The notes under the pieces were generated by a model. That model searched no databases. It saw nothing but the letters and a program-made list of their open reading frames with translations, and was not told where the DNA came from. Below, one piece after another: positions 3-17,460 of a DNA stretch of 20,677 nt; position 1 is the stretch's first letter, and each line of letters begins with the position of its first letter. Source of the stretch: a virus; the IMG/VR virus record IMGVR_UViG_3300035670_001447, positions 1-20,677 of that record. One strand, written 5' to 3'. Both the position numbers and the translations under genes were made by a program.

Positions 3-908
3 GAAAACACAGAATCATCTCGTGGTCTTGTGTGGTTGAGTGTAAAAGTTCGAGAAGATAAATTCGACTTTGAGAAATGGCTCAAGAAAGTTGCCAAGAT
101 GTCAATCAAAGAGCGCAAAGAAGAAGCGCGTGGTGTTGAGGAAACTTATATTTCAGATACAACCTATGCCAATGTGGTGTTGTCTGGCATTGCTGGTTGG
201 TTTGATCGTTATCCTCGCATTCCGTATGGTCGCGCGACAGCGTATACGCAAAACTCATATGACAAATTCAAATTGTCATTCCCCTTTCTACAAACACTTG
301 ATCGTGGTTTTGCTGAACTGCTTCCACAACGTCATGCCGCTCAACGTGAGGCTGCAGATAAGATTGATCCAGCATTCTTGGTTCCACAAACTGTATTCAC
401 CACCATTACAGTGAACAAGACATTCCGCACAGCAGCACATCGTGATGCTGGTGACTTTACGAATGGGTTGAGTAATCTTCTTGTTCTATCAAACAATGGT
501 AATTATACAGGTGGGTATCTCATTCTTCCAGAAGTTCGTATTGCTGTGAATGTGCGACCAGGTGACCTGCTGCTCGTAAATAATCATGAGTACATTCACG
601 GCAATACACCTATTGAACTGCAAGATGAAACAGCAGAGCGTGTAAGTCTTGTTTGTTATTTGCGCGAGAAGATGCTCGAACTCGGGAGCAAAGAATATGA
701 AGATCATCGATATAATTATGTTGAGCAGCGTAGAAAAAACAAAGAACATCCACTACAACGAAAACTTTGGAATGGCATCTCAGAAGGAATGTGGGAAGAA
801 CAAGAGTGGTATGACTATCTGGAGAGAGTTGGTGGAAGGGAAATGGTTGAGAAGTATCACCCAGAAGCATACAAAAAAGAATCAACTCTAGAAGATATGT
901 TCGGCTAA
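3..908 (+). CDS. TET/JBP-family 2OG-Fe(II) dioxygenase (5' partial)
   Basis: The reading frame is open to the left edge (codons run from base 3), so the N-terminus is missing; the GTG at 30 is probably internal. Numbering from that GTG, the double-stranded beta-helix signature is clear: TVFTTITVNK (121-130), the metal-binding HRD at 137-139, NYTGGYLILPEVR leading to VRPGDLLL, EYIHGNTP with the distal His190, and ERVSLVCY with Arg204, which should bind 2-oxoglutarate. This order and spacing match the TET/JBP group, which oxidises the 5-methyl of thymine or 5-methylcytosine in DNA, rather than prolyl hydroxylases or AlkB. The upstream GIAGWFDRYPRIPYGR segment also fits phage members. It is followed three bases later by the amidotransferase gene, then by base-modification genes, which supports phage DNA hydroxylation as its job. 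Whether the substrate is T or 5mC is not decided by the sequence. Confidence 0.88.
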   Translation, partial: ENTESSRGLVWLSVKVREDKFDFEKWLKKVAKMSIKERKEEARGVEETYISDTTYANVVLSGIAGWFDRYPRIPYGRATAYTQNSYDKFKLSFPFLQTLDRGFAELLPQRHAAQREAADKIDPAFLVPQTVFTTITVNKTFRTAAHRDAGDFTNGLSNLLVLSNNGNYTGGYLILPEVRIAVNVRPGDLLLVNNHEYIHGNTPIELQDETAERVSLVCYLREKMLELGSKEYEDHRYNYVEQRRKNKEHPLQRKLWNGISEGMWEEQEWYDYLERVGGREMVEKYHPEAYKKESTLEDMFG

Positions 909-911
909 TAT

Positions 912-1601
912 ATGTGCGCAATCATTGGTGCTTATATTGAAAAACCAAGTTCTCGTGACTTGATTATGCTTGCTGACGTTTTCCGCGAGTCTAGTATTCG
1001 CGGATTACATGCAACTGGAGTTTCTTGGGTTCGTGGCGGTGAAATCAAAACTATCATTGAGCCAAAACCAGCCACGCAGTTTTTAGAATCACTCGACCTA
1101 AACAATTGTGTCAACGAAGATGGCAATCTATATCTGATTGGTCATTGTCGATATTCTACTTCTGATCTTGAATTCAATCAACCATTATGGAATGAAAATA
1201 TTTCCATTGTACATAATGGAGTTGTGAGCCAAGAGATGCCAGAGAACTGGGAACGTCTCTATGGCTACAAGTGCAAAACTCGAAATGATAGTGAGTTGAT
1301 TCTTCATACTCTTGAAGCAAAGAAGTCGCCACTTGTAGAATTTTCCAATGCTTCAATGGCTGTAGTTGAGTTGTACAAAGAAAAGCAATTACGTTTCTAT
1401 CGTAACGGTAAACGTCCAATTTACTTTACTTCTTTGACCAATGGTGGTATAATTACTTCTACGAAAGATATTGCTCTTCGTTCTGATCTCAAAGATCCTA
1501 TTGAGATTGATATGAATTGTTATGTTACTATAGCAAAAAATGTCTTTCGAAAGAACTATGTTATGATTGATGATGCAAAGGATTTACAGCATGTACGATA
1601 A
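912..1601 (+). CDS. Class II glutamine amidotransferase (Ntn-type, stand-alone)
   Basis: 229 aa. The ORF opens with Met-Cys, so cleavage of Met would expose the catalytic Cys2 of N-terminal-nucleophile (PurF-type) glutaminases. Other family motifs appear in order: RGLHATG (30-36), GHCRYST (77-83), IVHNG (99-103) and the NDSE (125-128) that corresponds to the T/sDSE motif binding glutamine. There is no synthase, phosphosugar-isomerase or PRPP domain, so this is only the ammonia-releasing half and needs a partner. The obvious partner is the amidoligase that starts inside its last codons (1591). Coupled GAT-II/amidoligase pairs are known from peptide- and metabolite-modifying operons, including phage ones. 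Supplying nitrogen for a DNA-base side chain is an inference from the neighbours; modification of a protein or cell-wall peptide is an alternative. The start is fixed by the required Cys2; no strong Shine-Dalgarno is visible. Confidence 0.87.
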   Translation: MCAIIGAYIEKPSSRDLIMLADVFRESSIRGLHATGVSWVRGGEIKTIIEPKPATQFLESLDLNNCVNEDGNLYLIGHCRYSTSDLEFNQPLWNENISIVHNGVVSQEMPENWERLYGYKCKTRNDSELILHTLEAKKSPLVEFSNASMAVVELYKEKQLRFYRNGKRPIYFTSLTNGGIITSTKDIALRSDLKDPIEIDMNCYVTIAKNVFRKNYVMIDDAKDLQHVR

Positions 1602-2463
1602 GTCAACGTTTACATATGGTGCTGAGATTGAGTGGGGTGATATTGATCGTCGTATGGAAATCCCCCCAACTCTTGGTAAATGGGAATATGCTGAAACAGA
1701 TATTGTAAACATTCATCCACCTTTTCAATATCGTGCATGCGATCCGCTTGGCAAAGAACCATGGATGGGTGGTGAAGTCAATATGATGCCGACAAAGACT
1801 TGGCAGGAACAAGTTGATCGCATCATGCGTTTGAAAGAAATGTTTCTAGAATATGGAAACATACCAACTGCTTCCTGCGTCAATCATGGACATATTCATG
1901 TCTTTGTTCCAGGATTGAAGAATGATATTGCTGGATTGAAGCGATTGATTGGATACATCCAAGACAATCAAGAAGATACCATTGAAGCCTGTTATCAGTT
2001 TCATGAAACATCTGAGATGAAACAATGCGAAGGCGCAAAGATGTATCTGAAGTTTGATGGTGGTCGCCCAATGCCTGAGTATATGTGCGACAATATTATT
2101 GAACTTGCTACTGACTTCAATCACTTTATCAAATTACATGCTGCTGGAAAAGATGGCGTATCAATGGGTCGTCCATTCAGATTTGCCATCAATACTTACT
2201 GCATGAAGCATACTGGTACGATCGAGTTCCGCTGCTTCCGTTCTACAACCAAACGCGAGGAGATGGAATCTCAGTTTCGATTCGTGGAAATGTTCATGGA
2301 TGCTGCGCTGAATGGGGGTCCCTCAGTTCGTGAGATTCTCGCTAATAATACATTCAAGTTTCCTCCATTTGTATGGAATCTGGATGAGTATCATGGATGG
2401 CAGCAAACCAAGTATCCAAAAGAGCGCGGAGAAAAGAAACGCGAGTTCCATGACGCTGCGTGA
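1591..2463 (+). CDS. Amidoligase (Amidoligase_2, glutamine-synthetase-like fold)
   Basis: 290 aa. ATG 1591 is preceded by AAGGAT at a good distance; ATGs further up (1570, 1573) lack this. The N-terminal YGAEIEW (9-15) is the metal-binding strand of the COOH-NH2 ligase family, followed by GGEVNMMP (Glu62), the NHGHIHV motif (98-104) and TIEFRCFRST (210-219), the conserved TIEFR-type strand. Together these identify an Amidoligase_2 protein, which is predicted to form an amide bond between a carboxylate and an amine using ATP in a glutamine-synthetase-like active site. It overlaps the glutamine amidotransferase upstream and the GNAT gene downstream, so the three are probably co-translated. The most likely role is amidating a carboxylated side chain or precursor of a modified base; other carboxylates cannot be excluded. 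Confidence 0.82.
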   Translation: MYDKSTFTYGAEIEWGDIDRRMEIPPTLGKWEYAETDIVNIHPPFQYRACDPLGKEPWMGGEVNMMPTKTWQEQVDRIMRLKEMFLEYGNIPTASCVNHGHIHVFVPGLKNDIAGLKRLIGYIQDNQEDTIEACYQFHETSEMKQCEGAKMYLKFDGGRPMPEYMCDNIIELATDFNHFIKLHAAGKDGVSMGRPFRFAINTYCMKHTGTIEFRCFRSTTKREEMESQFRFVEMFMDAALNGGPSVREILANNTFKFPPFVWNLDEYHGWQQTKYPKERGEKKREFHDAA

Positions 2464-2965
2464 AACAAGTCGCGATGAGTTTGTCGCGCATATAACTGAA
2501 AACAAAGCAGACTCTTTCGCCAAGACTTTTGTGGCGAAAGCAGATATGCAAGAACAATGGCAGTATTGTGTCGGATACTGGGAAGGCGGAGAGTTGGCTG
2601 GCGCGATTATTACAACACGCTCTAAGAAAACTCCATATGTTTTCAATCTACAATTGCTTCATACGTTTGCTAAACATAGACGTAAAGGTGTTGCTAGATT
2701 ACTCACACAAGACTCTCTTGATCGCGCACAAGGTCTTGGCACCAGTTACTATCGTGTTTCAGCAGAACCTGATGCAGTCGTGTTCTATGAATCTATGGGA
2801 TTCAAATTCTTGGGAAAACAGAAAAGCGGATGTTCGCTGAGTATGTTCAAAATCAATGGTAAAAATTTCGCTGATGGAATCTATGATCTTTCTGATCCTG
2901 TGATACACGCAGCAGTATACAAAAAAGGTAAAGGTGGTTGTGTCGAAGTCTTTGCAGCGTCGTGA
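2450..2965 (+). CDS. GNAT-family N-acyltransferase
   Basis: 171 aa, one GNAT domain. The acyl-CoA binding loop is HRRKGVARLL (76-85, R-x-x-G-x-A type), preceded by the beta-4 strand LQLLHTFA, and the C-terminal motif VVFYESMGFKFLG (111-123) carries the tyrosine that often acts as general acid. The open frame reaches back to 2312 but that part is a shadow of the amidoligase gene; ATG 2450 gives a family-sized protein and a 14-base overlap. A 9-bp perfect hairpin lies in codons 22-30. Position between the amidoligase and the kinase pair suggests acylation of a modified base or of its precursor (inference). A host-directed acetyltransferase is the main alternative. Confidence 0.83.
   Translation: MTLRETSRDEFVAHITENKADSFAKTFVAKADMQEQWQYCVGYWEGGELAGAIITTRSKKTPYVFNLQLLHTFAKHRRKGVARLLTQDSLDRAQGLGTSYYRVSAEPDAVVFYESMGFKFLGKQKSGCSLSMFKINGKNFADGIYDLSDPVIHAAVYKKGKGGCVEVFAAS
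2514..2540 (+). repeat. 9-bp inverted repeat within the GNAT gene
   Basis: CTTTCGCCA (2514-2522) and TGGCGAAAG (2532-2540) are perfect reverse complements around a 9-base loop. No U-tract follows, so it is not a terminator. It lies about 65 bases inside the coding region and could slow translation or protect mRNA, or be chance. Confidence 0.6.
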
Positions 2966-3953
2966 ACAATTCATCCGTTGGTATGCGTGGTCGATGCAAT
3001 TTGGCGACTGCGATCCAGCGGTATGGATGACCAATTATCTTCATAAACGATACGAACACAATGACGAGGAAAGGCTCTGGCTTGCATGGCTTTATGGTAA
3101 CACCTACCAATTGCCAACTGCATGGGTTCTAAAAAATGAATTCCCAGATTATGAGTTGGCTACAGTTGATCGCATTGAATGGTGGAATAGCCAGAACTAC
3201 AAAAGACTTAGATACCAAGTTGATACAAAGTGGAACAAAGGTCACTTGCCTGCCATGTTCGCTTCTTACCAAAAATTTATTGGCAAGAAAACACAACGTG
3301 AGGTTCTAGAGAAATATTATGGAGACAACGAACAGCAGACTTTCAACAACCTTTGGAATAATCTTAAAACTTCTCTTCACAAATTTGGTCGCTATTCCAC
3401 TTGGTTTTATCTTCAGCATCTTAGTCACACTGCTGGCATTGAGTGTATACCTACTAGCCTCATGTTGGACGATTATTCAGGCTCTCGTTCTCATCGTAAT
3501 GGTTTGCATCTCGCCATCGGGCAAGATGACAAGTATGATACAAAACTCACTGCTGCAGAATGCACAGACCTTGAAAGCCAAGCCAAAGAAATTCTTGAGG
3601 AAACCAGATCTCGATTCCCTCAACTGAGCAGCCAAATAGATTTCTTCACGATGGAAACTTGTTTGTGTTCATTCAAGAAAATCTTTCGTGAACATCATGG
3701 GCGTTATCTTGGTTACTATCTCGATCGTCAATCTGAAGAAATATCTCAAGCAGAAGGCGATGGTTGGACTGGCATTGAATGGAATGTTTTGTGGCAAGCG
3801 CGCAATGAAACGCTAGACCCAAGACTTGCTCCAAGAAATAAAATCAACAAGGAAAAGTTTACTTATTTCCTGAGAACAGGTAAACTAGAAAGAATGACTT
3901 GGATGTTCCAAGACGAAGAAGAAGTGAAAGAAGGTTTGGAGGCATTATGGTAA
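2940..3953 (+). CDS. Helical-domain protein of 5-hmdU DNA kinase / aGPT-Pplase clade 2 type
   Basis: About 337 aa, mostly alpha-helical and rich in Trp and Tyr. It begins with REQFIRWYAWSMQFGDCDPA, contains FGRYSTWFYLQHLSHTAGI near residue 150 and ends in a charged RTGKLERMTWMFQDEEE segment. Overall it resembles the helical domain of the alpha-glutamyl/putrescinyl-thymine pyrophosphorylase clade 2 family, found in phage thymidine-hypermodification enzymes, where it is usually fused to a P-loop kinase. Here the P-loop part is encoded by the next gene, which starts 7 bases before this stop. The predicted role is in phosphorylation of 5-hydroxymethyluracil in DNA or displacement of that phosphate by a nucleophile. 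The start is uncertain: GTG 2940 (AAAGG five bases upstream) is preferred over GTG 2934. Recognition is from overall pattern and context, so moderate. Confidence 0.68.
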   Translation: MSKSLQRREQFIRWYAWSMQFGDCDPAVWMTNYLHKRYEHNDEERLWLAWLYGNTYQLPTAWVLKNEFPDYELATVDRIEWWNSQNYKRLRYQVDTKWNKGHLPAMFASYQKFIGKKTQREVLEKYYGDNEQQTFNNLWNNLKTSLHKFGRYSTWFYLQHLSHTAGIECIPTSLMLDDYSGSRSHRNGLHLAIGQDDKYDTKLTAAECTDLESQAKEILEETRSRFPQLSSQIDFFTMETCLCSFKKIFREHHGRYLGYYLDRQSEEISQAEGDGWTGIEWNVLWQARNETLDPRLAPRNKINKEKFTYFLRTGKLERMTWMFQDEEEVKEGLEALW

Positions 3954-4504
3954 AAGTGATTGCGATGGGTGGCGAGCCAGCAACTGGCAAGACCACTCTA
4001 ATGTTCAAGTTGATTTCGATGGCTGATGACTGGGAAGTTATCAAGCCGCAGAAGTTGCTTGATGCGATGTATTCCAAGAAACTAAATCTTTATATTCTTG
4101 GCAAATATGCAAACGATGGTAATGTGTTTCAGGGTACTGATCGTTTATCAATGGCGGTGCAGCCAGACGCTGTTGCTTTCTTCGAGTCACTTGAAACTGG
4201 CAACGTGATCTTCGAAGGTGATCGTTTATTCAATGGTAAGATGCTTGATCGTCTTTCTGAACTATTCCCAAATGATTTCAAGATTCTTATCCTCACAGTG
4301 AAGGATAGCACTCTTGATCAGCGTCATATTGATCGCAAAGATGATCAAGATGACAAATTCAAAAATTCTCGTAAGACTAAAATCTCGAACATCATGGGGT
4401 CGCTGACGCTCATGGACTATATAGAGACAATGGTCAACGAAAATCTCGATGATCAGTCTAAGATTATTGATCATATTAGAAAATTTTACAACTGGAGTGA
4501 ATAA
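3947..4504 (+). CDS. P-loop kinase, 5-hmdU DNA kinase-like
   Basis: 185 aa, with a strong GGAGG five bases before ATG 3947. The Walker A loop is GEPATGKT (9-16). The region NLYILGKYANDGNVFQGTDR, then LSMAVQPDA, and the strand NVIFEGDRLFNG form a pattern I associate with the P-loop domain of phage 5-hydroxymethyl-deoxyuridine DNA kinases; the FEGDR aspartate would be the catalytic or metal-binding acid. The predicted reaction is ATP-dependent phosphorylation of the 5-hydroxymethyl group in DNA, making it a leaving group. It directly follows the helical protein, consistent with a two-chain version of an enzyme that is often one chain. A generic nucleoside/nucleotide kinase is the fallback call. 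Confidence 0.75.
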   Translation: MVKVIAMGGEPATGKTTLMFKLISMADDWEVIKPQKLLDAMYSKKLNLYILGKYANDGNVFQGTDRLSMAVQPDAVAFFESLETGNVIFEGDRLFNGKMLDRLSELFPNDFKILILTVKDSTLDQRHIDRKDDQDDKFKNSRKTKISNIMGSLTLMDYIETMVNENLDDQSKIIDHIRKFYNWSE

Positions 4505-4506
4505 TT

Positions 4507-5322
4507 ATGCAGTTAGAAGTATCTGTTGAACAGTTGCGCAAAAATAAACTATTTGTTGCAACACCCATGTATGGCGGTAACGCTCATGGAATGTATGTGA
4601 AGTCTTGTCTTGATTTGCAGTCTGTCTGCACTCAATATGGCATTGAAGTTCGTTTCTCGTTTATCTTCAATGAATCCCTCATTACTCGCGCTCGCAACTA
4701 TCTCGTTGATGAGTTCCTTCGCGCAGAAGGTTTTACTCATCTACTCTTTATTGACGCTGATATTCATTTCGATCCACGCGATGTGATTGCATTACTTGCT
4801 CTGGATAAAGAAGTCATTGGTGGACCATATCCGAAGAAGTCAATCAAGTGGGGTGCTGTGAAGGAAGGTGTGAAGCGCCATCCTGAAATTACTCCTGGCG
4901 ATATGGAAAAGTTGGCTGGCGATTTCGTCTTCAATCCAGTTCCTGGCACTGAGAAGTTCTCTGTTGCTGAGCCAGTTGAAGTTCTTGAGATTGGTACGGG
5001 TTACATGATGGTCAAGCGTGAAGTATTCGGTAAATTCGCTGAAGCATATCCGCAATTGAAATATCGTCCAGATCATGTTGGTCAAGCAAACTTCGACGGC
5101 TCACGTTATATCCATGCTTACTTCGATACTGTTATCGATAGCAAGGCAAATGGTGGGCGTGGATCAGATCGTTACTTGTCTGAAGACTATATGTTCTGTC
5201 AGTGGTGGAGAAACATCGGTGGACAAATTTGGTTGTGCCCATGGATGAAGACGCACCACGTTGGTACATATGCATTCACTGGTGATATGCCAGCCGTTGC
5301 AAACTTTGTTGGCTCTCTCTAA
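4507..5322 (+). CDS. GT-A glycosyltransferase
   Basis: 271 aa, starting two bases after the kinase stop. The N-terminal strand KLFVATPMYGG is followed by ESLITRARNYLVDEFL and then HLLFIDADIHFDP, whose Asp-Ala-Asp at 83-85 is the metal/nucleotide-sugar binding DxD motif of GT-A enzymes. GGPYPKK and, toward the C-terminus, RYLSEDYMFCQWWRNIGG followed by HHVGTYAF complete a GT2-like layout that is common in tailed phages. It is about the usual length for this phage family. Being directly behind the base-modification genes it could glycosylate hydroxymethylated bases; a role in capsid or host-surface glycosylation is equally compatible with the sequence. Confidence 0.8.
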   Translation: MQLEVSVEQLRKNKLFVATPMYGGNAHGMYVKSCLDLQSVCTQYGIEVRFSFIFNESLITRARNYLVDEFLRAEGFTHLLFIDADIHFDPRDVIALLALDKEVIGGPYPKKSIKWGAVKEGVKRHPEITPGDMEKLAGDFVFNPVPGTEKFSVAEPVEVLEIGTGYMMVKREVFGKFAEAYPQLKYRPDHVGQANFDGSRYIHAYFDTVIDSKANGGRGSDRYLSEDYMFCQWWRNIGGQIWLCPWMKTHHVGTYAFTGDMPAVANFVGSL

Positions 5323-5339: not shown

Positions 5340-6008
5340 ATGATCGTAGGTTTGATTGGCTTTATTGGAGCAGGTAAAGGCACAGTCGCAGATCTCTTGG
5401 TTGATCGCCATGATTTTGTCAAAGAGAGTTATGCGAATAGCGTCAAAGACGCCTGTGCCACTATCTTCGGTTGGAATCGTTCCATGCTTGAAGGTGACAC
5501 TCCAGGATCTAGAGCATGGCGCGAGCAGCCAGATGCTTGGTGGTCAGAAAAATTCGGTCGCGAATTCTCACCAAGATTGGCTCTCCAACTAATGGGCACA
5601 GAGGCAGGTCGTGATGTATTTCACCCTGACCTCTGGGTTCATACTGTGATGCGTCGCTGCGAACAAGCACCATGGAATAACTATGTGATTGCTGATGTTC
5701 GTTTCCCAAATGAAATTGATGCAATTGTAAAGTCTGGTGGCAAGGTCATTCGTGTTCGTCGCGGTGAAGATCCAGAATGGTATGCACTCGCTCGTGAGTG
5801 CAATACCTATAACAAACAAGAAATAATGCGCAATGCTTATCCAGAAGTGCACTTTAGTGAGTGGGCTTGGATTGGATCGCATTATGATATTGTGATGGAT
5901 AATAATTGTTCTCTTGATGAGTTGACCGTAAGGGTTGACAAGTTGGTTGATTCGTTATATAATAATCATGTTGAAGCAAATGAGGTTCTAAATTATGAAA
6001 CTTTCTGA
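5340..6008 (+). CDS. 1: Deoxynucleoside monophosphate kinase (T4 gp1-like)
   Basis: 222 aa. The P-loop GFIGAGKGT (7-15) heads the chain, followed by a lid-containing middle with GDTPGSRAWREQPDAWW, LALQLMGTEAGRDVF and the strand NYVIADVRFPNEIDAI, all typical of the T4 gp1 family. The enzyme phosphorylates dNMPs to dNDPs for phage DNA synthesis; T4 gp1 also accepts the modified 5-hydroxymethyl-dCMP, so broad base tolerance is possible here. It overlaps the sliding-clamp gene by 14 bases. The start at 5340 follows an AAGAGA-like weak ribosome site. The combination with gp45/gp44/gp62 downstream makes the assignment firm. Confidence 0.88.
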   Translation: MIVGLIGFIGAGKGTVADLLVDRHDFVKESYANSVKDACATIFGWNRSMLEGDTPGSRAWREQPDAWWSEKFGREFSPRLALQLMGTEAGRDVFHPDLWVHTVMRRCEQAPWNNYVIADVRFPNEIDAIVKSGGKVIRVRRGEDPEWYALARECNTYNKQEIMRNAYPEVHFSEWAWIGSHYDIVMDNNCSLDELTVRVDKLVDSLYNNHVEANEVLNYETF

Positions 6009-6669
6009 TGATACTGTGCAAGTCCTGAAAAACTTTTCGGGCATCAATCAAAGTTTGCAGTTCAAGTCTGGCAATACTTTGAAGACTATTTCTCCACTCA
6101 AGACTATTTTTGTTGAAGCAACTGTTGGTGAGAGTTTTCCGAAAGAGTTCGCTCTTTATGATTTGAATAAACTCTTGGCAAAGGTTTCTTTGTACAAGGA
6201 TGCTGAGTTGTCGTTTGATGATGACAAACTCAACATCAGCGCAAACAAAAAGTCTGATTATATCAAGTATTGTTCGCCGAAAGTTATTGTGACTCCTCCT
6301 GAGAAAGCAATCACATTTGGTGAGCCTGATTGTTCATTCAGCCTTTCACAAGAAGATCTTGATTGGATGCGCAAGAGTGCTGGCATCTCTGGTTCACCAA
6401 ACTTCGTCTTTGAAAGCGATGGTTCCACGATTCAATTCATTGCCACTGATGTCAAAGACGACTCTGCTGATCAATCCAAGATTGAGATTGGTACAGTTGA
6501 AGACGGTAAAGAGTTCAAGGTTGTCATGAAGGTCGAAAACTTCAAGTTACTTGAAGGTTCTTATGATGTTGCGATTGCCAAGAAAGGTCTTGCTCGATTC
6601 AAGCACAAGACTGTCGATATCACTTACTACATTGCAATCGAAGCCGCAAGTTCGACATTCGGAGAATAA
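5995..6669 (+). CDS. 45: DNA polymerase sliding clamp (gp45)
   Basis: 224 aa, against 228 in T4. The start MKLSDDTVQVLKNFSGIN closely matches the T4 clamp N-terminus (MKLSKDTTALLKNFATIN), and the chain ends with the matching ALEA-type strand (YYIAIEAAS). It forms the trimeric ring that tethers gp43 and, in T4, also activates late transcription through gp55/gp33. ATG 5995 has GAGG upstream and overlaps gp1. The next gene begins two bases after its stop. In T4, the cluster order is 45-44-62-regA-43, which is preserved here with insertions. Confidence 0.95.
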   Translation: MKLSDDTVQVLKNFSGINQSLQFKSGNTLKTISPLKTIFVEATVGESFPKEFALYDLNKLLAKVSLYKDAELSFDDDKLNISANKKSDYIKYCSPKVIVTPPEKAITFGEPDCSFSLSQEDLDWMRKSAGISGSPNFVFESDGSTIQFIATDVKDDSADQSKIEIGTVEDGKEFKVVMKVENFKLLEGSYDVAIAKKGLARFKHKTVDITYYIAIEAASSTFGE

Positions 6670-6671
6670 TC

Positions 6672-6908
6672 ATGGCACTTGATAAAGCAAAGGTATTGGG
6701 ATGCCTTCAAGAAATCTCAAACTCACTTACTCGCATTGAAGCAGAACGGGATCTGATCAAAGAGATTCTTCAGAAGATGCAAGATGAATGTGAGATTCCG
6801 AAGAAGTTGTCTCGTAAACTCGCAAAGGTTTATCACAAACGTAATTATGAAGAAGAAGTTGCAGAACAGAGCGACTTCCAGACTATTTACGAAAACGTGG
6901 CTAAATAA
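6672..6908 (+). CDS. dsbA: DsbA-like double-stranded DNA-binding protein
   Basis: 78 aa, mostly helical. The segment PKKLSRKLAKVYHKRNYEEEVAEQ followed by IYENV at the C-terminus parallels T4 DsbA, which has LYHKQ followed by acidic residues and a LYDTV end. T4 DsbA is a small protein that binds dsDNA near late promoters and modestly stimulates late transcription. The N-terminal half (about residues 5-40) has heptad-like spacing and could be a coiled coil. It starts two bases after gp45. The gene is followed by the tRNA-like structure at 6914-6984 and a late promoter at 6999. Assignment rests on a short motif, so it is not certain. Confidence 0.66.
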   Translation: MALDKAKVLGCLQEISNSLTRIEAERDLIKEILQKMQDECEIPKKLSRKLAKVYHKRNYEEEVAEQSDFQTIYENVAK

Positions 6909-6912
6909 ATCT

Positions 6913-6985
6913 AAGAGGTGTAGCGTTCTGCTAATGGTACAATCCGCCAGACTGCCACCATGGGAGTTCACCTTCCCCACCTCTT
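6913..6985 (+). other. 71-nt tRNA-like or branched terminator-like structure
   Basis: AGAGGTG (6914-6920) pairs perfectly with CACCTCT (6978-6984), extendable by one more A-T pair, enclosing a tRNA-sized span of 71 nt. Inside, in tRNA order, are TAG after the 5' arm, AATGGTA as in a D-loop, CCAGACTGCCA resembling a Gly(GCC) anticodon stem-loop, and GGGAGTTC resembling a T-arm. However the D-stem and the 3' half of the anticodon stem do not pair, so no canonical cloverleaf forms. TGGT/ACCA (6935-6938/6957-6960) is an alternative inner helix. The run TTTCTTTTC after the closing stem would suit a terminator. It may be a decayed tRNA, a terminator, or both. Confidence 0.4.
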
Positions 6986-6998
6986 TCTTTTCATTTTG

Positions 6999-7006
6999 TA
7001 TAAATA
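6999..7006 (+). promoter_or_regulatory. T4-type late promoter (TATAAATA)
   Basis: An exact TATAAATA, the T4-family late -10 box read by RNA polymerase with gp55/gp33/gp45, lies in intergenic DNA 60 bases before the homing-endonuclease-like gene. I found no second exact copy in the window. Transcription would start near 7012, at the foot of the hairpin 7012-7041. Confidence 0.65.
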
Positions 7007-7011
7007 GAGAT

Positions 7012-7041
7012 GTCCCTCGCGGAACGGCAATTCCCAGGGAC
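7012..7041 (+). promoter_or_regulatory. 5'-leader hairpin of the NUMOD3 gene
   Basis: GTCCCT (7012-7017) pairs with AGGGAC (7036-7041), and GGAA (7021-7024) with TTCC (7031-7034), giving a bulged stem with a CGGCAA loop. It would form at the very 5' end of the late transcript and just upstream of AAAGGAG (7053-7059). T4 homing-endonuclease genes often carry a late promoter plus a leader hairpin that limits early translation; here the hairpin does not itself cover the ribosome site, so its role is unclear. Confidence 0.5.
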
Positions 7042-7066
7042 CCTAATACTGCAAAGGAGTATCAGC

Positions 7067-7447
7067 ATGTCTATTTATACCTATAAAACCCATAAGGCTC
7101 TGTGCGAACTATTCAATACAGAGTATTATGAAAATCCATGCCTCAGCGACCAACAATTAGATTTTATCCCAGAAAATTCTACAGTTGCCGAACCATGGAA
7201 TAAAGGAAATGATATGTTCATGGGTAAAAACAATCCCATGGCAGAAAGAACTGGTGAAAAACATTTCTTTTGGGGTAAGACTCATACAGATTATGCGAGA
7301 AAAAGAATTAGTCTTGCTTTAGTTGAACGTATGAAGGATTATGAATACCGAACAGTTGAATGCCCTCATTGTCATAAAGTTGGTGGCGTAAACAATATGA
7401 ATCGGTATCATTTTGATAAATGTAAATCTTTGCAATGGAGTAATTGA
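7067..7447 (+). CDS. NUMOD3/zinc-finger protein, homing-endonuclease-like (no nuclease domain seen)
   Basis: 126 aa. ATG 7067 has AAAGGAG seven bases upstream; the longer open frame from 7010 would cross the late promoter leader and is rejected. Residues about 43-85 (PWNKGNDMFMGKNNPMAERTGEKH then FFWGKTHTDYARKRIS) contain NUMOD3-type repeats, the DNA-minor-groove binding modules of GIY-YIG and HNH homing endonucleases. The C-terminus VECPHCHKVGG..NMNRYHFDKCK is a CCHC zinc finger also typical of phage homing enzymes. No GIY-YIG or HNH catalytic motif is present, and the N-terminal 40 residues are unfamiliar. It sits between gp45 and gp44 genes, a classical homing-endonuclease insertion zone, with its own late promoter. 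It may be a decayed endonuclease or a DNA-binding regulator. Confidence 0.7.
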   Translation: MSIYTYKTHKALCELFNTEYYENPCLSDQQLDFIPENSTVAEPWNKGNDMFMGKNNPMAERTGEKHFFWGKTHTDYARKRISLALVERMKDYEYRTVECPHCHKVGGVNNMNRYHFDKCKSLQWSN

Positions 7448-7449
7448 TC

Positions 7450-7770
7450 ATGGCAACAAGGCGTAATTTTTTCAAGTATCTTGGTCTTGCTGGTGGTGTT
7501 GCTGGCGGTGGTATTGTAGCCGCAGCCGCTGTTCTTCCTGATGCTGATAAATGCGAAGCAATAGAAAAAATCAAAGCCTCTGGTTACAATGGCAAGATGA
7601 CTATTGGCACTGAGTATGGTGAACTCGTACCACCAAATGGTACAGTTAGTTTCGGTCCACGTTTTGTTCCAGGAACACAAAAGCATGTAACCGCAAGTAT
7701 GACCGTCGGTCCTGATGGCGAGATGTACTTGATGACAAACGGAAAATGGCGTAGAATAGTAACTGAATAA
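7450..7770 (+). CDS. Small protein with twin-arginine (Tat) signal
   Basis: 106 aa, ATG 7450 with GGAG nine bases upstream. The N-terminus ATRRNFFKYLGLAGG matches the Tat consensus (S/T-R-R-x-F-F/L-K), followed by a Gly/Ala-rich hydrophobic stretch (about 12-28) ending in VAAAAVLP, a plausible signal peptidase site. The mature part (about 78 aa) has no family I recognise; it looks beta-rich, with GYNGKMTIGTEYGELVPP and a final DGEMYLMTNGKWRRIV that resembles virion or tail-associated repeat segments. Export of a folded protein through the host Tat system is unusual for a phage product. A structural protein that merely has an N-terminal hydrophobic anchor is the alternative. Confidence 0.7.
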   Translation: MATRRNFFKYLGLAGGVAGGGIVAAAAVLPDADKCEAIEKIKASGYNGKMTIGTEYGELVPPNGTVSFGPRFVPGTQKHVTASMTVGPDGEMYLMTNGKWRRIVTE

Positions 7771-7788
7771 GCAATCAGGAGTTATATT

Positions 7789-8727
7789 ATGAATGAAGCG
7801 TTGTGGGTTGAAAAATACCGTCCGCACACTATTGCCGATTGTATTCTTCCTGATGAATACAAGGCAACTTTCCAATCTTATGTTGATCGCAAAGAGATTC
7901 CCCATCTCTTACTTTGTGGCACTCCAGGAACAGGTAAGACTACCGTTGCTCGTGCATTGTGTGACGAGATCGGTTGTGATTATCTGATGATCAATGGCTC
8001 GGATGAGTCGGGAATCGACACTTTCCGCGTCAAGATCAAGAATTATGCAAGTGCGATGTCTCTTGGTGGTGGTAAGAAAGTTATCATCATCGATGAGGCA
8101 GATTATCTAAATCCAAACTCAACTCAGCCAGCCATGCGTGCAGCAATGGAAGAGTTTGCGCATAACTGCACGTTCATTATGACTTGCAATTTCAAGAATC
8201 GTATCATTGAACCGTTGCATAGTCGTTGTGCTGTGATTGAATTCAAACTGCGCAAAGAAGAAAAGCCAAAGATGGCAATGGCTTTCATGAAGCGTGCATC
8301 AGAGATTCTAACTGGTGAAAAGATTCCATTTGATAAGGCAGTACTGGCTGAAGTTGTCAAGAAGCATTTCCCAGATTATCGTCGTGTTCTAAATGAACTC
8401 CAGCGTTACAGTGTGAGCGGTAAGATTGATTCAGGTATTCTCACCAGCATTGCTGATGTTTCGATCAATGAATTGGTGACATCACTCAAAGATCAAAACT
8501 TCAGTGCAATGCGCAAGTGGGTTGCTGACTTTGGTGGTGATGATCCTGCAAAGATCTATCGTAAAATCTACGACAGTCTGTATGATATCATGGATAAGTC
8601 CACGATTCCGAATGCTGTATTGATTCTCGCCAAGTATCAATACCAAGCAGCGTTTGTCGCAGATCAAGAACTGAACCTCACCGCATGTCTGACCGAGATG
8701 ATGGTGGAGTGTAAGTTCAATGGCTAG
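7789..8727 (+). CDS. 44: Clamp loader large subunit (gp44), AAA+ ATPase
   Basis: 312 aa (T4: 319). Begins with the RFC-type LWVEKYRPHTIADCILP. Walker A is GTPGTGKT (44-51), Walker B is VIIIDEAD (98-105), and the SRC arginine-finger motif is at 145-147. As in T4 it should form a tetramer with one gp62, loading the gp45 ring onto primer-template junctions using ATP. AGGAG lies about eight bases before ATG 7789. Its last codons overlap the DUF3820 gene. All key ATPase residues are intact. Confidence 0.95.
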   Translation: MNEALWVEKYRPHTIADCILPDEYKATFQSYVDRKEIPHLLLCGTPGTGKTTVARALCDEIGCDYLMINGSDESGIDTFRVKIKNYASAMSLGGGKKVIIIDEADYLNPNSTQPAMRAAMEEFAHNCTFIMTCNFKNRIIEPLHSRCAVIEFKLRKEEKPKMAMAFMKRASEILTGEKIPFDKAVLAEVVKKHFPDYRRVLNELQRYSVSGKIDSGILTSIADVSINELVTSLKDQNFSAMRKWVADFGGDDPAKIYRKIYDSLYDIMDKSTIPNAVLILAKYQYQAAFVADQELNLTACLTEMMVECKFNG

Positions 8728-8929
8728 AAAAGATGATTTGATCGGTGAGATTCGAAAAGAATCTCAATACACTAAAATACCATTTGGCAAGTACAAAGGA
8801 TATTACATCAAAGATGTACCAATTGGTTACTTAGATTGGGCATCTGATAATTTATCAGACGAAGGTTTGCGTTGGATGTGTAAAATTGAACGCGAACGAA
8901 GAACTAAAAAGAGAAAAAATCGTGGCTGA
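8720..8929 (+). CDS. DUF3820 small protein
   Basis: 69 aa. The segment KIPFGKYKGYYIKDVPIGYL then DWASDN is the core of the DUF3820 family, small proteins found in phages and proteobacteria whose function is not established. In some larger phage proteins the same module is near exonuclease or nuclease domains. The C-terminus RERRTKKRKNR is strongly basic, suggesting nucleic-acid contact. It overlaps gp44 by eight bases and gp62 by eight, so its translation is coupled to both clamp-loader subunits. Confidence 0.75.
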   Translation: MARKDDLIGEIRKESQYTKIPFGKYKGYYIKDVPIGYLDWASDNLSDEGLRWMCKIERERRTKKRKNRG

Positions 8930-9302
8930 TCTATTCAAGGAAATCATTCCGTCTATTCTACAGACGAAGGAATATGCTCTCCTGACAGAACAGGATGAAA
9001 AGTCATATTCATCGTTTATGGTAAACCGAGCACTCTCGTTTCATCGCGATACCGTTCTTTTCGCGAATGAGATGAATCGATTCTCGACTCTCGACAATAA
9101 ACTCAAATACGACTTTCTCCTAAATATTGTAAGAGCCCAAAAGCGCCAATATTCAAAATGGCATAAAAAGGCTCAAAGTAGTGATTTGAGTGTTGTCAAG
9201 GAATACTATGGTTACTCCGATGCGAAAGCAGAGGAAGCATTAAAGATTCTATCCGACGACCAAATCACCGCAATGAAAAAACAATTATATAAGGGTGATT
9301 GA
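8922..9302 (+). CDS. 62: Clamp loader small subunit (gp62)
   Basis: 126 aa from GTG 8922 (protein begins ADLFKEIIPSILQ, which resembles the SLFKDD start of T4 gp62). The conserved middle SYSSFMVNRALSFHRD and then RQYSKWHKK match the T4 SKFMVENALSQ and RYGKWAK segments. T4 gp62 is 187 aa, so this one lacks about 60 C-terminal residues, as in several non-enterobacterial T4-like phages. It should be the single clasp subunit of the gp44/62 loader. The upstream TTG 8886 is less likely. It is followed two bases later by regA, as in T4. Confidence 0.82.
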   Translation: MADLFKEIIPSILQTKEYALLTEQDEKSYSSFMVNRALSFHRDTVLFANEMNRFSTLDNKLKYDFLLNIVRAQKRQYSKWHKKAQSSDLSVVKEYYGYSDAKAEEALKILSDDQITAMKKQLYKGD

Positions 9303-9304
9303 CC

Positions 9305-9703
9305 ATGGTCGAAAAATTAGTAGAAGTCACACTAGAAAAGCAAGACGACTTCCTCAAAGTCCGCGAAACTCTAACGCGCATCGGTGTCGCTGCAAAGAAC
9401 GACAACATTCTTTATCAGTCTTGCCATATCCTCCATAAACAAGGAAAGTATTACATTGTTCATTTCAAAGAACTCTTTGAATTAGACGGTAAGCCATCGA
9501 ACATGTCTGATAATGACATTCAGCGTCGTAACACGATTGCGAACCTAATGGCTGAGTGGGGTTTGGTAAAACTCGTCGATGAAAACAAGACAAAGGATAA
9601 CGTCGCACCATTGAGCCAGATCAAGATTCTTCCATTCAAGGAGAAGAATGAGTGGCAATTGGTTTCCAAGTATACAATCGGGAAGAAAAAGAAGGAAGGA
9701 TAA
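9305..9703 (+). CDS. regA: RegA translational repressor
   Basis: 132 aa (T4: 122). The N-terminus LVEVTLEKQDDFLKVRETLTR then ILYQSCHILHKQGKYYIVHFKE is nearly T4 RegA (EITLKKPEDFLKVKETLTR, VLYQSCHILQKKGLYYIVHFKE), and the end EWQLVSKYTIGKKKK matches as well. RegA binds ribosome-binding regions of many early phage mRNAs, including clamp, clamp loader and its own, and shuts down their translation. ATG 9305 is chosen over TTG 9299. The C-terminus has an extra lysine-rich tail. It lies in the T4 position after gp62; gp43, next in T4, is displaced here by about 9 kb. Confidence 0.95.
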   Translation: MVEKLVEVTLEKQDDFLKVRETLTRIGVAAKNDNILYQSCHILHKQGKYYIVHFKELFELDGKPSNMSDNDIQRRNTIANLMAEWGLVKLVDENKTKDNVAPLSQIKILPFKEKNEWQLVSKYTIGKKKKEG

Positions 9704-9706
9704 ATT

Positions 9707-10324
9707 ATGCTCTCAGTGAATGTGTATAAACTTCGTGATGATATTGAACTTCCAACATACGGTACGAAATTCGCAAATTGTTTTGATCTATCGTTTCAGC
9801 CAACAAGTAATGTTGTGCATGGATACGACGAATTCAATTCTCCAATAGAACGCGAAGTGAACTCTTTTGGTGAAATTTCAATTTTTCACGGAGATCGTTT
9901 ATTGATTCCAACTGGACTGATCTTCAAGATCGAACAGTTGATTACGATTGAAACTTATTCTGATATTTCTCGGAAAGAACTGCCACTTCAGAATTACAGC
10001 ATTCGCCTTCATCCTCGCTCTGGACTTTCGCTCAAGAAAGGGTTGATCCTCGCAAATAGCGAAGGCGTCGTTGATGTTGATTATCAAGAAGAAGTGTTTG
10101 TTCTACTTACCAACATCTCAAAGATGCATCAAACGATTCGTCGTGGAGATCGTATTGCTCAGGCTGAAGTCGTTGCCAACGAACCATTTGGATTCACTGT
10201 TCTATCAAAGAGACCAGAAAAACATTCTGAAAGATCTGGTGGATTTGGATCAACTGGTGTTGCAAAAGAAACCGCACCTATGGAAGAATGGCAGGTCGAC
10301 GGACCAACAGAATTTCCTAAATAG
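9707..10324 (+). CDS. dut: dUTP diphosphatase (dUTPase)
   Basis: 205 aa, longer than the usual 140-170. The trimeric dUTPase motifs are in order: motif I as FANCFDLSF (22-30), a variant of A-G-x-D-L; II PRSGLSLKKGL (103-113); III EGVVDVDYQ (119-127) with the catalytic Asp and substrate Tyr; IV RGDRIAQ (146-152); V SERSGGFGSTG (174-184). The extra length lies between motifs I and II (about 35-95) and in the tail after motif V. It hydrolyses dUTP to dUMP and PPi, keeping uracil out of DNA and supplying dUMP. A strong AAGGAAGGA precedes ATG 9707. With the nearby dCMP deaminase it controls the dUMP/dTTP pool. Confidence 0.9.
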   Translation: MLSVNVYKLRDDIELPTYGTKFANCFDLSFQPTSNVVHGYDEFNSPIEREVNSFGEISIFHGDRLLIPTGLIFKIEQLITIETYSDISRKELPLQNYSIRLHPRSGLSLKKGLILANSEGVVDVDYQEEVFVLLTNISKMHQTIRRGDRIAQAEVVANEPFGFTVLSKRPEKHSERSGGFGSTGVAKETAPMEEWQVDGPTEFPK

Positions 10325-10328
10325 AATT

Positions 10329-10349
10329 GGAATGCCCATTTGGGGTTCC
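10329..10349 (+). other. Imperfect hairpin in the Hsp20 leader
   Basis: GGAATGCCC (10329-10337) can pair with GGGGTTCC (10342-10349) with one mismatch and a G-U pair around a short loop. It lies just after the dUTPase stop and has no U-tract, so it is not a convincing terminator. Confidence 0.3.
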
Positions 10350-10363
10350 ATAACTATACTTGC

Positions 10364-10378
10364 TTACTAAAGGAGTAA
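10364..10378 (+). promoter_or_regulatory. Ribosome-site hairpin before Hsp20
   Basis: TTACT (10364-10368) pairs with AGTAA (10374-10378) around AAAGG, so the Shine-Dalgarno AAAGGAG (10369-10375) is partly enclosed in a weak 5-bp stem. Such a weak stem could open with heat, as in RNA thermometers of small heat-shock genes, but the pairing is short and could be chance. Confidence 0.3.
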
Positions 10379-10382
10379 CAAA

Positions 10383-10820
10383 ATGACTAATATCACAACA
10401 CTCACATCCGCATCACTCGATCGCCTTCTTCCAACTGCTCTTGGGTTTGAAAATGCGTTCGCTGCTCTCGATAATGCGGCTCATCTACTAACAGCAACAT
10501 CCAATGCCTTTCCTCCAGTGAATGTCGTCAAGAAAGACGAATACAACTTTGTCGTGGAACTAGCAGTTGCTGGATATAAGATTGATGAGATTGAAATCAC
10601 TGCTGAGAAAAACTCTCTCAAAGTTACAGGCAAAAAGGTAGAGGAAGACACTCGCGAATATCTTGTAAAAGGTATTGCTGGTCGTAAATTCGCTCGCCAA
10701 TTTGTTTTGTCTGATACAGTAGTGGTTCGTGATGCTGCACTTGCTGATGGCATTCTTTCTATTCAATTAGAAAATGTCATTCCTGAAGAACAGAAACCTC
10801 GTAAGATTGAAATCAAATAA
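10383..10820 (+). CDS. Small heat-shock protein (Hsp20/alpha-crystallin, IbpA-like)
   Basis: 145 aa. An N-terminal Phe/Leu-containing arm (DRLLPTALGFENAFAAL) is followed by the alpha-crystallin domain (about 45-135) with FPPVNVVKKDEYNFVVELAV, the I-x-I-type turn GYKIDEIEI, LKVTGKK and the conserved DGILSIQLENVIPEEQKPRKIEIK; the last residues give the I-E-I oligomerisation tail. Length and layout match IbpA-type chaperones that hold unfolded proteins for refolding. T4-like phages of alpha- and cyanobacteria sometimes carry such genes. It is preceded by a good AAAGGAG site and followed by dCMP deaminase 16 bases later. Confidence 0.92.
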   Translation: MTNITTLTSASLDRLLPTALGFENAFAALDNAAHLLTATSNAFPPVNVVKKDEYNFVVELAVAGYKIDEIEITAEKNSLKVTGKKVEEDTREYLVKGIAGRKFARQFVLSDTVVVRDAALADGILSIQLENVIPEEQKPRKIEIK

Positions 10821-10836
10821 CCATTGAGATTATATT

Positions 10837-11328
10837 ATGATTCGTGATGAACTATCGTGGGATGAATTGTTTATCTTGCAGGCTACTCTGATCGCTCAGA
10901 AAAGCAAAGACCCGTCGACAAAAGTGGGGTGTATTATTGTAAATGATGATAATGTTATTTTGTCGACGGGTTTCAATGGCTTTCCAAGAGGCATTGAAGA
11001 AGATTGGAAAGATCGTTGGAAGAGTCCAGAAAAGTACCATTGGGTTGAGCATGCTGAACGCAATGCAATCTTCAACGCAGCACGTGTTGGTGTTTCACTC
11101 AACAATTCTCGTGCATATCTAAACTGGGAACCAAAGCCATGCGCTGATTGTACACGCGCATTGATTCAAGCAGGGATCAAGGAAGTCATCGGACCAAACC
11201 GACCATTCTCTGGTAAGGGTGCGGGAAAGCATTACTCGATCGAGCATGCGGAAGTCATGCTGCGCGAGGCAGGAGTCCGAATACGCTATTTCGACCTTCC
11301 CCCAGAACTCGGGGAACCCCCATTCTAG
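10837..11328 (+). CDS. cd: dCMP deaminase
   Basis: 163 aa. Zinc ligands and catalytic Glu are present as HAERNAI (72-78; His72, Glu74) and PCADCTRALIQAG (101-113; Cys102, Cys105). DPSTKVGCIIV (25-35) and ILSTGFNGFPRG (41-52) form the nucleotide-binding part. The enzyme deaminates dCMP to dUMP, the precursor of dTMP, so it raises the thymine supply in a phage that probably modifies thymine. It lacks the long insert with extra zinc site seen in T4 Cd. Two segments that encode DPSTK and LSTG are exact inverted complements of each other (see the inverted repeat). A GC-rich hairpin lies near its 3' end. Confidence 0.92.
   Translation: MIRDELSWDELFILQATLIAQKSKDPSTKVGCIIVNDDNVILSTGFNGFPRGIEEDWKDRWKSPEKYHWVEHAERNAIFNAARVGVSLNNSRAYLNWEPKPCADCTRALIQAGIKEVIGPNRPFSGKGAGKHYSIEHAEVMLREAGVRIRYFDLPPELGEPPF
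10910..10971 (+). repeat. Perfect 14-bp inverted repeat inside dCMP deaminase gene
   Basis: ACCCGTCGACAAAA (10910-10923) and TTTTGTCGACGGGT (10958-10971) are perfect reverse complements separated by 34 bases; a G-U and an A-T pair extend the outer end. The arms encode parts of the DPSTK and ILSTG motifs, so both are under protein constraint. Each arm holds a GTCGAC palindrome. No U-tract follows. Function unknown. Confidence 0.85.
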
Positions 11329-14763: not shown

Positions 14764-15255
14764 ATGAAGATCTCGATCGGTAGATATCCAAAGAAAGACG
14801 GCAAGCAAAAGAAGTCAATTCGTATTGATCCATGGGACACATGGAGCATGGATCATACTCTTGCCGACATCATTCTTCCAATGCTTCGGCAATTGCGCAA
14901 GACGCAACATGGTGCACCGTGCACTGATGATGAAGATGTTCCTGAGCATCTTCGTTCAACCAATGCCAAACCCAAGAAAAATGAATGGGACGTGGACGAG
15001 TTTCACTTCAAGCGTTGGGACTGGATCATGAAAGAAATGATCTGGACTTTCGGCGAGCATTCTAAAGATCGCGAGCCAAACTTCTGGATCAAGAAACCCA
15101 AACATAAGTGGGTGGATGTGGAAGGTCAAGACTGGAAAGAAATGATCACCACTGACAAAGGCATCTACGACGAAGCCAAAGCCAAAGCATACTGGGAGCG
15201 AAAGAGGAATGGCTTTCGTTTGTTTGGAAAATATTATCAAAATTTATGGGATTGA
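14764..15255 (+). CDS. Conserved hypothetical phage protein (163 aa)
   Basis: 163 aa. IRIDPWDTWSMDHTLADIIL then PMLRQLRKTQHGAP, together with FHFKRWDWIMKEMIWTFGE, form a pattern that recurs widely in T4-like phages under the name conserved hypothetical protein; function unknown. It is rich in Trp and charged residues. The C-terminus (ERKRNGFRLFGKYYQNLW) is basic. Start ATG 14764 is close after the basic peptide. It precedes the methyltransferase/glycosyltransferase cassette but is not obviously part of it. Confidence 0.75.
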   Translation: MKISIGRYPKKDGKQKKSIRIDPWDTWSMDHTLADIILPMLRQLRKTQHGAPCTDDEDVPEHLRSTNAKPKKNEWDVDEFHFKRWDWIMKEMIWTFGEHSKDREPNFWIKKPKHKWVDVEGQDWKEMITTDKGIYDEAKAKAYWERKRNGFRLFGKYYQNLWD

Positions 15256-15257
15256 AC

Positions 15258-16043
15258 ATGATACCACCAGTAAAAATACATGAAACTCGTCAGGGCATCA
15301 GATATGCTCTATTTACTCAACCAGAAATCATCTCTGATGAGATTCGAAAGAATAACTATTGGAATGTCTACAATTTAGAAATTGCTGACATTATTCTGAG
15401 TGAGAGAGATCGATGTAGAGTTGTCGATATTGGTTCTGGTATGGGTGCATTTACCATACCATTGGCTGTAAAGTATCTCAAGAAACATATCTTTGATTCT
15501 TTTGAACCAGTTCCAGCACTCAACGCTCAATTGAACGCTAATACTCTATTGAATCAACTCAATAATGTTCGGTGTCATAGAATTGGTGTTTGGGATAAAA
15601 ACGAGATCATTGATAGTTTTATCTTTGACTTATCCTCTATGAACCATGGTTCGTTTGCGTTGTCTCGCGATAACTATGTGAATCGCAGTCTGCCAATCCC
15701 AAATGAGACTGATGTGTTTGAACTGAGAACTTTAGATGATTATCGATTTGCTCAAGTTGGGCTCATCAAGATTACAGTCTCAGGTAGTGAACTTGAAGTT
15801 GTCAGAGGCATTGAGAAAACTGTTGAAATGAATGAACTGCCGCCGCTGATGATTGAGTCTTGGAATGTTGAGTGGAACAAAGAACGTCAGGTTGAACTTC
15901 GTGAGTTGCTAAAGAAATACGGATACAAACAAGTGATTTCACGCAGAGATTTTATTTTCGCGTTCAACAACGAAGATCTCTGTAAGAAAGTCGAGGCTCG
16001 ACTCAACGAGCAGCGTCCAGGAACATTGGTAGTATTCAAGTGA
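15258..16043 (+). CDS. FkbM-type SAM-dependent methyltransferase
   Basis: About 261 aa. Motif I is VVDIGSGMGAFTIPLA, followed by FDSFEPVPALNAQLNAN as the acidic loop, and the C-terminal half contains LIKITVSGSELEVVRGIEKT and PLMIESWNVEW, as in FkbM family O-methyltransferases, which typically methylate sugar or polyketide hydroxyls. ATG 15258 (GGGA upstream) and ATG 15246 are both possible. The stop overlaps the GT2 gene by four bases (GTGA), so the two should act together. Sugar O-methylation of a glycan is the likely job. Confidence 0.78.
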   Translation: MIPPVKIHETRQGIRYALFTQPEIISDEIRKNNYWNVYNLEIADIILSERDRCRVVDIGSGMGAFTIPLAVKYLKKHIFDSFEPVPALNAQLNANTLLNQLNNVRCHRIGVWDKNEIIDSFIFDLSSMNHGSFALSRDNYVNRSLPIPNETDVFELRTLDDYRFAQVGLIKITVSGSELEVVRGIEKTVEMNELPPLMIESWNVEWNKERQVELRELLKKYGYKQVISRRDFIFAFNNEDLCKKVEARLNEQRPGTLVVFK

Positions 16044-17447: not shown

Positions 17448-17460
17448 GTTGGAGAATGAA

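Follow-up and report, generated by a model that had tools for sequence, protein, structure and literature searches.

Introduction

In the Salmonella phage ViI, the Pseudomonas phage M6 and the Delftia phage phiW-14, which carry 5-NeOmdU, 5-NedU and putrescinylthymine, respectively, 5-hydroxymethyldeoxyuridine (5-hmdU) is made as a nucleotide, incorporated into DNA and phosphorylated there by a 5-hmdU DNA kinase, after which further modification gives tailored side chains (PMC6449724). Base J synthesis relies on a JBP hydroxylase that oxidizes the pyrimidine in the DNA and on a glucosyltransferase that decorates the resulting hydroxymethyl group. Pathways starting from hydroxymethyl pyrimidines made by TET/JBP enzymes were reportedly proposed already by Iyer et al. 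in 2013. In the Rhodococcus phage Tonitrus, a set formed by ParB, a TET-like protein, aGPT-Pplase2 and a 5-hydroxymethyluracil kinase has been annotated as a possible thymidine hypermodification system (PMC11955845). Here we analyze a six-gene operon at positions 3-4504 of a viral DNA of 20,677 bases (IMG/VR record IMGVR_UViG_3300035670_001447, hereafter the window). We think, with a probability of about 70%, that it turns thymine in the phage's own, already replicated DNA into a hypermodified base, by means of a TET dioxygenase, a kinase and an amino acid:DNA transferase (ADDT, alias aGPT-Pplase2), followed by amide and acyl tailoring.

The Tonitrus-type operon, which includes a ParB-domain protein and whose genes recur in the mycobacteriophages VioletZ and Heath, resembles that of the window in combining a TET/JBP enzyme, ADDT and a Ploopntkinase3 protein in one operon; moreover, VioletZ and Heath have no hydroxymethylase gene, like the relatives G001 and G008, two long contigs with the window operon. 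It differs in that no glutaminase, amidoligase or GNAT is recognized in it, its TET is about 20% identical and the phages are unrelated, and it is likewise a prediction. Because this core was already annotated, we regard the window operon as a variant of a known system and not as a new kind. The novelty claimed in an earlier note on this DNA was therefore overstated, and its idea on where the hydroxymethyl group comes from, although sound, had precedents. The ParB-TET-ADDT-kinase core is known as a prediction, whereas the addition of glutaminase, amidoligase and GNAT is, as far as we found, unreported. No paper linking amidoligase, TET and ADDT was found in the literature searched, outside which key older papers lay. 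A jumbo-phage survey consulted for TET with amidoligase reports no TET/JBP in jumbo phages and contains amidoligase only in a reference title.

The ViI, M6 and phiW-14 systems resemble our proposal in having hydroxymethyluracil in DNA, a 5-hmdU DNA kinase and tailored side chains, and the ViI-type phages also in an ADDT gene near the kinase (PMC6449724). They are unlike the window in drawing 5-hmdU from the nucleotide pool and in using other tailoring enzymes; the ViI-type genomes tested have a ThyA-type gene, no TET and a kinase of the HMUD2 family. To our knowledge, no amidoligase is part of these three systems. With base J the proposal shares oxidation of a pyrimidine in DNA and decoration of the hydroxymethyl group by a second enzyme. 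Of 33 related loci, eight have just TET and a GT-B glycosyltransferase; in the window type, kinase, ADDT and the nitrogen genes stand in place of the glycosyltransferase. Regarding the amide, the CmoX-CmoY carboxymethylcytosine-glycine amide system of Synechococcus phage S-B43 also forms an amide on a base of phage DNA at the expense of ATP, and a CmoY subgroup has a glutaminase domain; phage amide ligases that act on DNA bases are thus a precedent for the last tailoring step (PMC12783734). However, that system works on cytosine with Cx-SAM chemistry and an asparagine-synthetase-type ligase (PMC12783734), whereas the window has a glutamine synthetase (GS)-fold ligase, TET, kinase and ADDT, and no C5-methyltransferase.

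The six genes and the pathway they may encode

The six genes lie on the plus strand, separated by a few bases or overlapping, so that the compact run described in the earlier note is borne out by reading frames and Pfam matches. The starts of the amidoligase, GNAT and ADDT genes are approximate, as they were picked by eye from the reading frames. In the proposed pathway, the Tet_JBP enzyme would hydroxylate thymine in DNA at its methyl group, giving 5-hydroxymethyluracil, the P-loop kinase would phosphorylate the hydroxymethyl group and ADDT would swap the phosphate for an amino acid. The class-II glutaminase would then free ammonia from glutamine, with which the amidoligase would convert a free carboxylate into an amide, and the GNAT would acylate the free amine. 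The resulting side chain would be bulky and for the most part uncharged, and would block the nucleases of the host. We infer the first three steps from characterized relatives, and only infer the fourth, together with thymine as the substrate and the identity of the amino acid.

The Tet_JBP-type 2-oxoglutarate/Fe(II) dioxygenase gene (3-908) belongs to the family that had been named for it (PF12851, 1.2e-24, 86.8 bits versus a Pfam cut-off of 34.9), with the addition that its 5' end is cut by the start of the contig. Its match to phrog_24024 (3.6e-122) spans positions 136-429 of 433, and a complete orthologue of 430 amino acids is found at 9602-10894 of locus L012. The HxD...H iron site and the 2-oxoglutarate-binding arginine (H146, D148, H199 and R213) are invariant in 12 phage TETs with identity down to about 20%, and the TET profile matches TET2 and Naegleria Tet in the PDB. 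We propose that it is a thymine C5-methyl hydroxylase acting on DNA.

ADDT (about 2934-3953) matches PF18724 at 3.7e-19 over 220 residues (69.8 bits versus a cut-off of 26.2). It is 26-31% identical to homologues of Ackermannviridae, Vibrio phages and mycobacteriophages, and 15 columns are invariant in its alignment with ViI-type ADDT. The family expected for this helical protein had been HMUDK_hel (PF18723), which gives no match at E<=1 even though it does detect its member in phage Montesquieu. By analogy with its relatives, the enzyme would link an amino acid (or ammonia) to 5-hydroxymethyluracil that has been activated in the DNA. The P-loop kinase (3947-4504), which resembles Ploopntkinase3, has the P-loop GGEPATGKT, and its structure model (predicted local distance difference test score, pLDDT, of 92) shows a nucleoside monophosphate (NMP)-kinase fold with the P-loop conserved. 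Its orthologues match PF18751 at 6e-13 (locus L078, 49.3 bits, 40% identical to the window kinase), 2e-20 (Microbacterium phage Margaery) and 4e-72 (Mycobacterium phage VioletZ). The kinase adjoins ADDT in nearly all loci, and in ViI-type and Vibrio phages ADDT is adjacent to or near the 5-hmdU DNA kinase HMUD2 (PF18747, 1e-75 to 1e-168). The analogy points to a 5-hydroxymethyluracil DNA kinase, so that the kinase-plus-transferase step foreseen from the sequence holds at the level of families and fold. Several public names in this group are misleading: in L101, L203, L097 and L098 the kinase is called terminase small subunit or adenylate kinase (also in phrog_800), and TET is called queuine tRNA-ribosyltransferase or SNF2 DNA repair protein.

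The three nitrogen-handling genes lie between TET and ADDT. The class-II glutamine amidotransferase (GAT-II, 912-1601), a stand-alone glutaminase domain, was recognized correctly: it matches GATase_6 (PF13522) at 2e-10, with 41.1 bits versus a cut-off of 27, and its catalytic residues are intact. Its top NCBIfam match is asparagine synthase (4e-10), over the glutaminase part of that model. The nucleophile Cys2, the glutamine-binding Arg80, Asn102-Gly103 and Asp126 are retained in at least 97% of 126 copies, which is consistent with a role as ammonia source. The GNAT assignment (about 2450-2965) also stands (Acetyltransf_10, PF13673, 2.8e-15), and this gene, with dN/dS (ratio of nonsynonymous to synonymous substitution rates) of about 0.04-0.12, would serve for N-acylation of the attached amine.

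The amidoligase (about 1570-2463) could not be placed in Amidoligase_2 as expected (PF12224, E 0.052, 13.9 bits versus a cut-off of 22), nor did its sequence match any in the PDB, but its predicted structure does agree with the assignment. Among solved structures, the AlphaFold model, built from 25 viral homologues (pLDDT 80.6), is closest to two YbdK-type glutamate-cysteine ligases (VIA Z 11.0 and 10.3); its top matches also include glutamine synthetases, gamma-glutamylcysteine synthetases (GCS), PafA and Dop. The acidic metal-site strand GxExE and the HxH and EFR motifs (E20, E22, H109, H111, E220, R222) are invariant in 25 copies with identity down to 32%. Judged by the model, the protein has the fold of glutamine synthetase and gamma-glutamylcysteine ligase and is a candidate ATP-dependent amide former of the carboxylate-amine ligase type. 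The identities of amidoligase and kinase, weak in Pfam, are thus settled by the structure models and the relatives, while the roles of glutaminase, amidoligase and GNAT in the pathway are presumptive.

Co-occurrence and exchange of cassettes

Three scans of IMG/VR gave about 170 viral loci; in the counts of distinct loci only identical sequences were removed, close relatives being kept. TET, GAT-II, GNAT, ADDT and kinase are all present at every one of the 18 distinct amidoligase loci whose flanks are long enough, and TET and kinase at all 46 such ADDT loci. These figures, together with the families and folds, uphold the earlier reading of the run as a base-hypermodification operon. The six-gene set is not a chance assembly, since it is found again in dozens of different viral contigs and all operon genes are under purifying selection (dN/dS of 0.03-0.26). 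In L153, TET has moved to a place between ADDT and kinase, and no gene of the set is missing. A search of 84,980 bacterial and archaeal genomes gave a single member of the amidoligase family, on a contig of 3.6 kb bearing the same phage operon.

Behind the same TET, 33 distinct loci carry different cassettes: GAT-II, amidoligase, GNAT, ADDT and kinase in 20, GAT-II, another GNAT (GNATb), ADDT and kinase in five, and only a GT-B glycosyltransferase, without kinase and ADDT, in eight. A further cassette consists of a methyltransferase-like protein with divergent ADDT and kinase. ADDT and kinase are tied together and alternate with the stand-alone glycosyltransferase. In the TET tree, the TETs of L050, L055 and L078 cluster with starred support, and their cassettes are of the amidoligase, glycosyltransferase and methyltransferase kind, respectively. 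Five cassette changes can be placed on this tree, which has long branches and no bootstrap and is used as support only. The simplest reading is that TET makes the hydroxymethyl group on which interchangeable enzymes build.

Some loci depart from these schemes. In L162 (2857-5400) and L175 (7525-10029), the genes between GAT-II and ADDT encode a GT-B glycosyltransferase, a divergent amidoligase and a protein resembling low-molecular-weight phosphatases, and the kinase is present as well. The slot between GNAT and ADDT is occupied by unlike proteins, ParB-like or HNH/GIY-YIG-like, in L012 (13030-14361), L050 (5166-6545), L117 (2849-4315) and L135 (9478-11079); these represent insertions of the homing type or else a specificity factor that was recruited, and ParB is also the first gene of the actinobacteriophage operon. 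In Phage C48C1 (L100, 11536-14977), TET is followed by a 348-residue protein of no recognized family, which by eye looks like a glycosyltransferase, and by UDP-galactopyranose mutase (GLF, 5.7e-52), so that a galactofuranosyl base is possible there.

Source of the hydroxymethyl group and choice of thymine

All seven sampled ADDT phages without TET (Cygsa01, Menlow, K493, PP35, Montesquieu, Hercules and phiMAM1) have a divergent ThyA-family gene, whereas no ThyA-family gene was found in four of five ADDT phages with TET, namely contigs G001 (173 kb) and G008 (168 kb) and the phages VioletZ and Heath; Cr30 has TET and a canonical-looking ThyA (3.9e-113). As the window is a fragment, G001 and G008 were used as the longest contigs with the operon, and the nucleotide-level 5-hmdU source of the ViI/M6 type is not found in them. 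Likewise, ThyX was not detected in G001-G004, Cr30 or VioletZ. This distribution supports the view, advanced in the earlier note, that a JBP/TET oxygenase provides the hydroxymethyl group, probably replacing the usual nucleotide-level hydroxymethylase in these phages. No C5-cytosine methylase was found in G001-G004, G008-G012, Cr30 or VioletZ, nor in DLP6, C48C1 or Margaery. Because the hydroxymethylase (ThyA-family) and C5-cytosine methylase genes are absent, thymine rather than cytosine is the likely TET substrate here.

The only tested TET phage with a C5-methylase is the Methylophilales phage Melnitz, in which this gene directly precedes TET and kinase. In Melnitz-2 (L102, 4010-8090), consecutive genes encode a C5-cytosine methylase, TET, a 427-residue protein of no recognized family and a kinase from the family of the window kinase, which may be a cytosine variant of the kinase route with another transferase. 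The Melnitz 427-residue protein, which lies between TET and kinase, was considered as a distant ADDT or amidoligase, and neither assignment found support. No ADDT was found near the TET of DLP6, and the published sentence on the restriction data of this phage is not interpretable. In G001 (L088), opposite-strand frames at about 5500-9900 are unlike the rest of the phage, and the 173-kb contig may be chimeric there.

Alternative explanations

Several points weigh against the pathway that we propose. The complete six-gene set was not found in any cultured phage. The window kinase itself matches Ploopntkinase3 (PF18751) at 8e-4, with 19.4 bits, under the cut-off of 27. The comparison of ThyA with TET covers 12 phages that are phylogenetically non-independent, and the contigs G001 and G008 are linear and may be incomplete. 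The choice of thymine over cytosine is drawn only from absent C5-methylase and hydroxymethylase genes, and a host-methylated cytosine is a possible substrate. Finally, the five type-b loci have GAT-II and a different GNAT without amidoligase, which weakens the pairing of glutaminase with amidoligase. This last point favors the main rival, an unlikely but serious one, in which the glutaminase belongs with ADDT: its ammonia would be fed to ADDT to give 5-aminomethyluracil in DNA, the amidoligase would join this amine to a carboxylic acid and the GNAT would acylate an amine. Besides the type-b loci, where GAT-II stands with ADDT, it is favored by the distribution of GAT-II, which accompanies the window-type ADDT in locus types a, b and e and is missing beside the more distant ADDTs of L078 and Cr30 (27-29% identical). 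However, characterized ADDT enzymes are said to use amino acids, according to Lee et al. in 2022. In addition, GS-like amidoligases commonly use ammonia or amines, which makes a GAT-II-amidoligase pair natural, and the type-b GAT-II could serve some other partner. The amide-containing side chain suggested in the earlier note is accordingly plausible in view of the GS-fold amidoligase and the intact glutaminase, but it is tempered by relatives that keep the glutaminase without the amidoligase and by the possible supply of ammonia to ADDT.

We give a distinctly lower probability to a cytosine target, in which TET would oxidize 5-methylcytosine made by the host or the phage, and kinase and ADDT would act on 5-hydroxymethylcytosine. 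Characterized phage TETs reportedly act on 5-methylcytosine (Burke et al. in 2021) and the gene order in Melnitz agrees with this, but G001, G008, Cr30, VioletZ, DLP6, C48C1 and Margaery have no C5-methyltransferase, and the known pathway with ADDT and 5-hmdU kinase is a thymidine pathway. It is improbable, too, and somewhat more so, that GAT-II, amidoligase and GNAT are an unrelated metabolic or cell-surface module sitting between DNA-modification genes. GCS-like amidoligases also serve in peptide and cell-wall chemistry, and none of the three proteins offers a DNA-binding signature that could be tested; yet the amidoligase is accompanied by TET, ADDT and kinase at every flanked locus, is otherwise not found in the prokaryote genomes searched, and belongs to a set that stays whole when its order is broken and a cassette that is swapped as a block. 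Least credible of all, and hardly to be expected, is a route in which TET oxidizes thymine repeatedly to 5-carboxyuracil, whose carboxylate the amidoligase amidates directly. TET enzymes are capable of stepwise oxidation. Phage ligases do amidate carboxylate handles, as known for 5-carboxymethylcytosine (PMC12783734). Such a route would nevertheless leave no role for kinase and ADDT, present wherever the flanks of the amidoligase could be read.

Genomic context

The T4-like character of the window is given by genes adjoining the six-gene run, which encode a T4-type deoxynucleoside monophosphate kinase, a DsbA homologue and the small subunit of the clamp loader. A frame for a family B DNA polymerase starts at about 18.8 kb (read by eye). 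A search for its own genome showed that the IMG/VR record is just the 20,677-base window, and megablast found no near-identical phage records. Directly downstream of the operon is a GT-A-like glycosyltransferase (4507-5322, plus strand; phrog_1574, 2.4e-60; Anp1, 1.9e-3, below cut-off), which follows several cassette types in the closest relatives and is not needed by the proposed pathway. Sugar-transferase-like and methyltransferase-like frames form a run at 15246-18141, immediately ahead of the DNA polymerase gene, and may be a further decoration cluster. A small protein at 7444-7770 has a twin-arginine-like, signal-peptide-like N-terminus (TRRNFFKYLGLAGG); it is unusual among T4-like replication genes and is kept in L012.

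Conclusions and outlook

The final base of the proposed pathway is, as far as we found, undescribed. In a more tentative and wider view, to which we give somewhat less than even odds, a widespread T4-like lineage has a fixed in-DNA thymine hydroxylase behind which whole cassettes are swapped, adding either a sugar or a variously tailored amino acid, the product in the window being a carboxamide-bearing, N-acylated amino-acyl thymine.

The thymidine hypermodification pathways worked out so far begin with a hydroxymethylated nucleotide, so that the pool must be replaced. If the TET-started route is true, ordinary thymine would be modified after replication, which could be site-selective. There would then be a set of genes with which an amide-type side chain could be introduced into DNA, and an amidoligase family essentially confined to phages would gain a function. 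Moreover, base-decoration chemistry would be exchanged modularly among close relatives, probably driven by host restriction.

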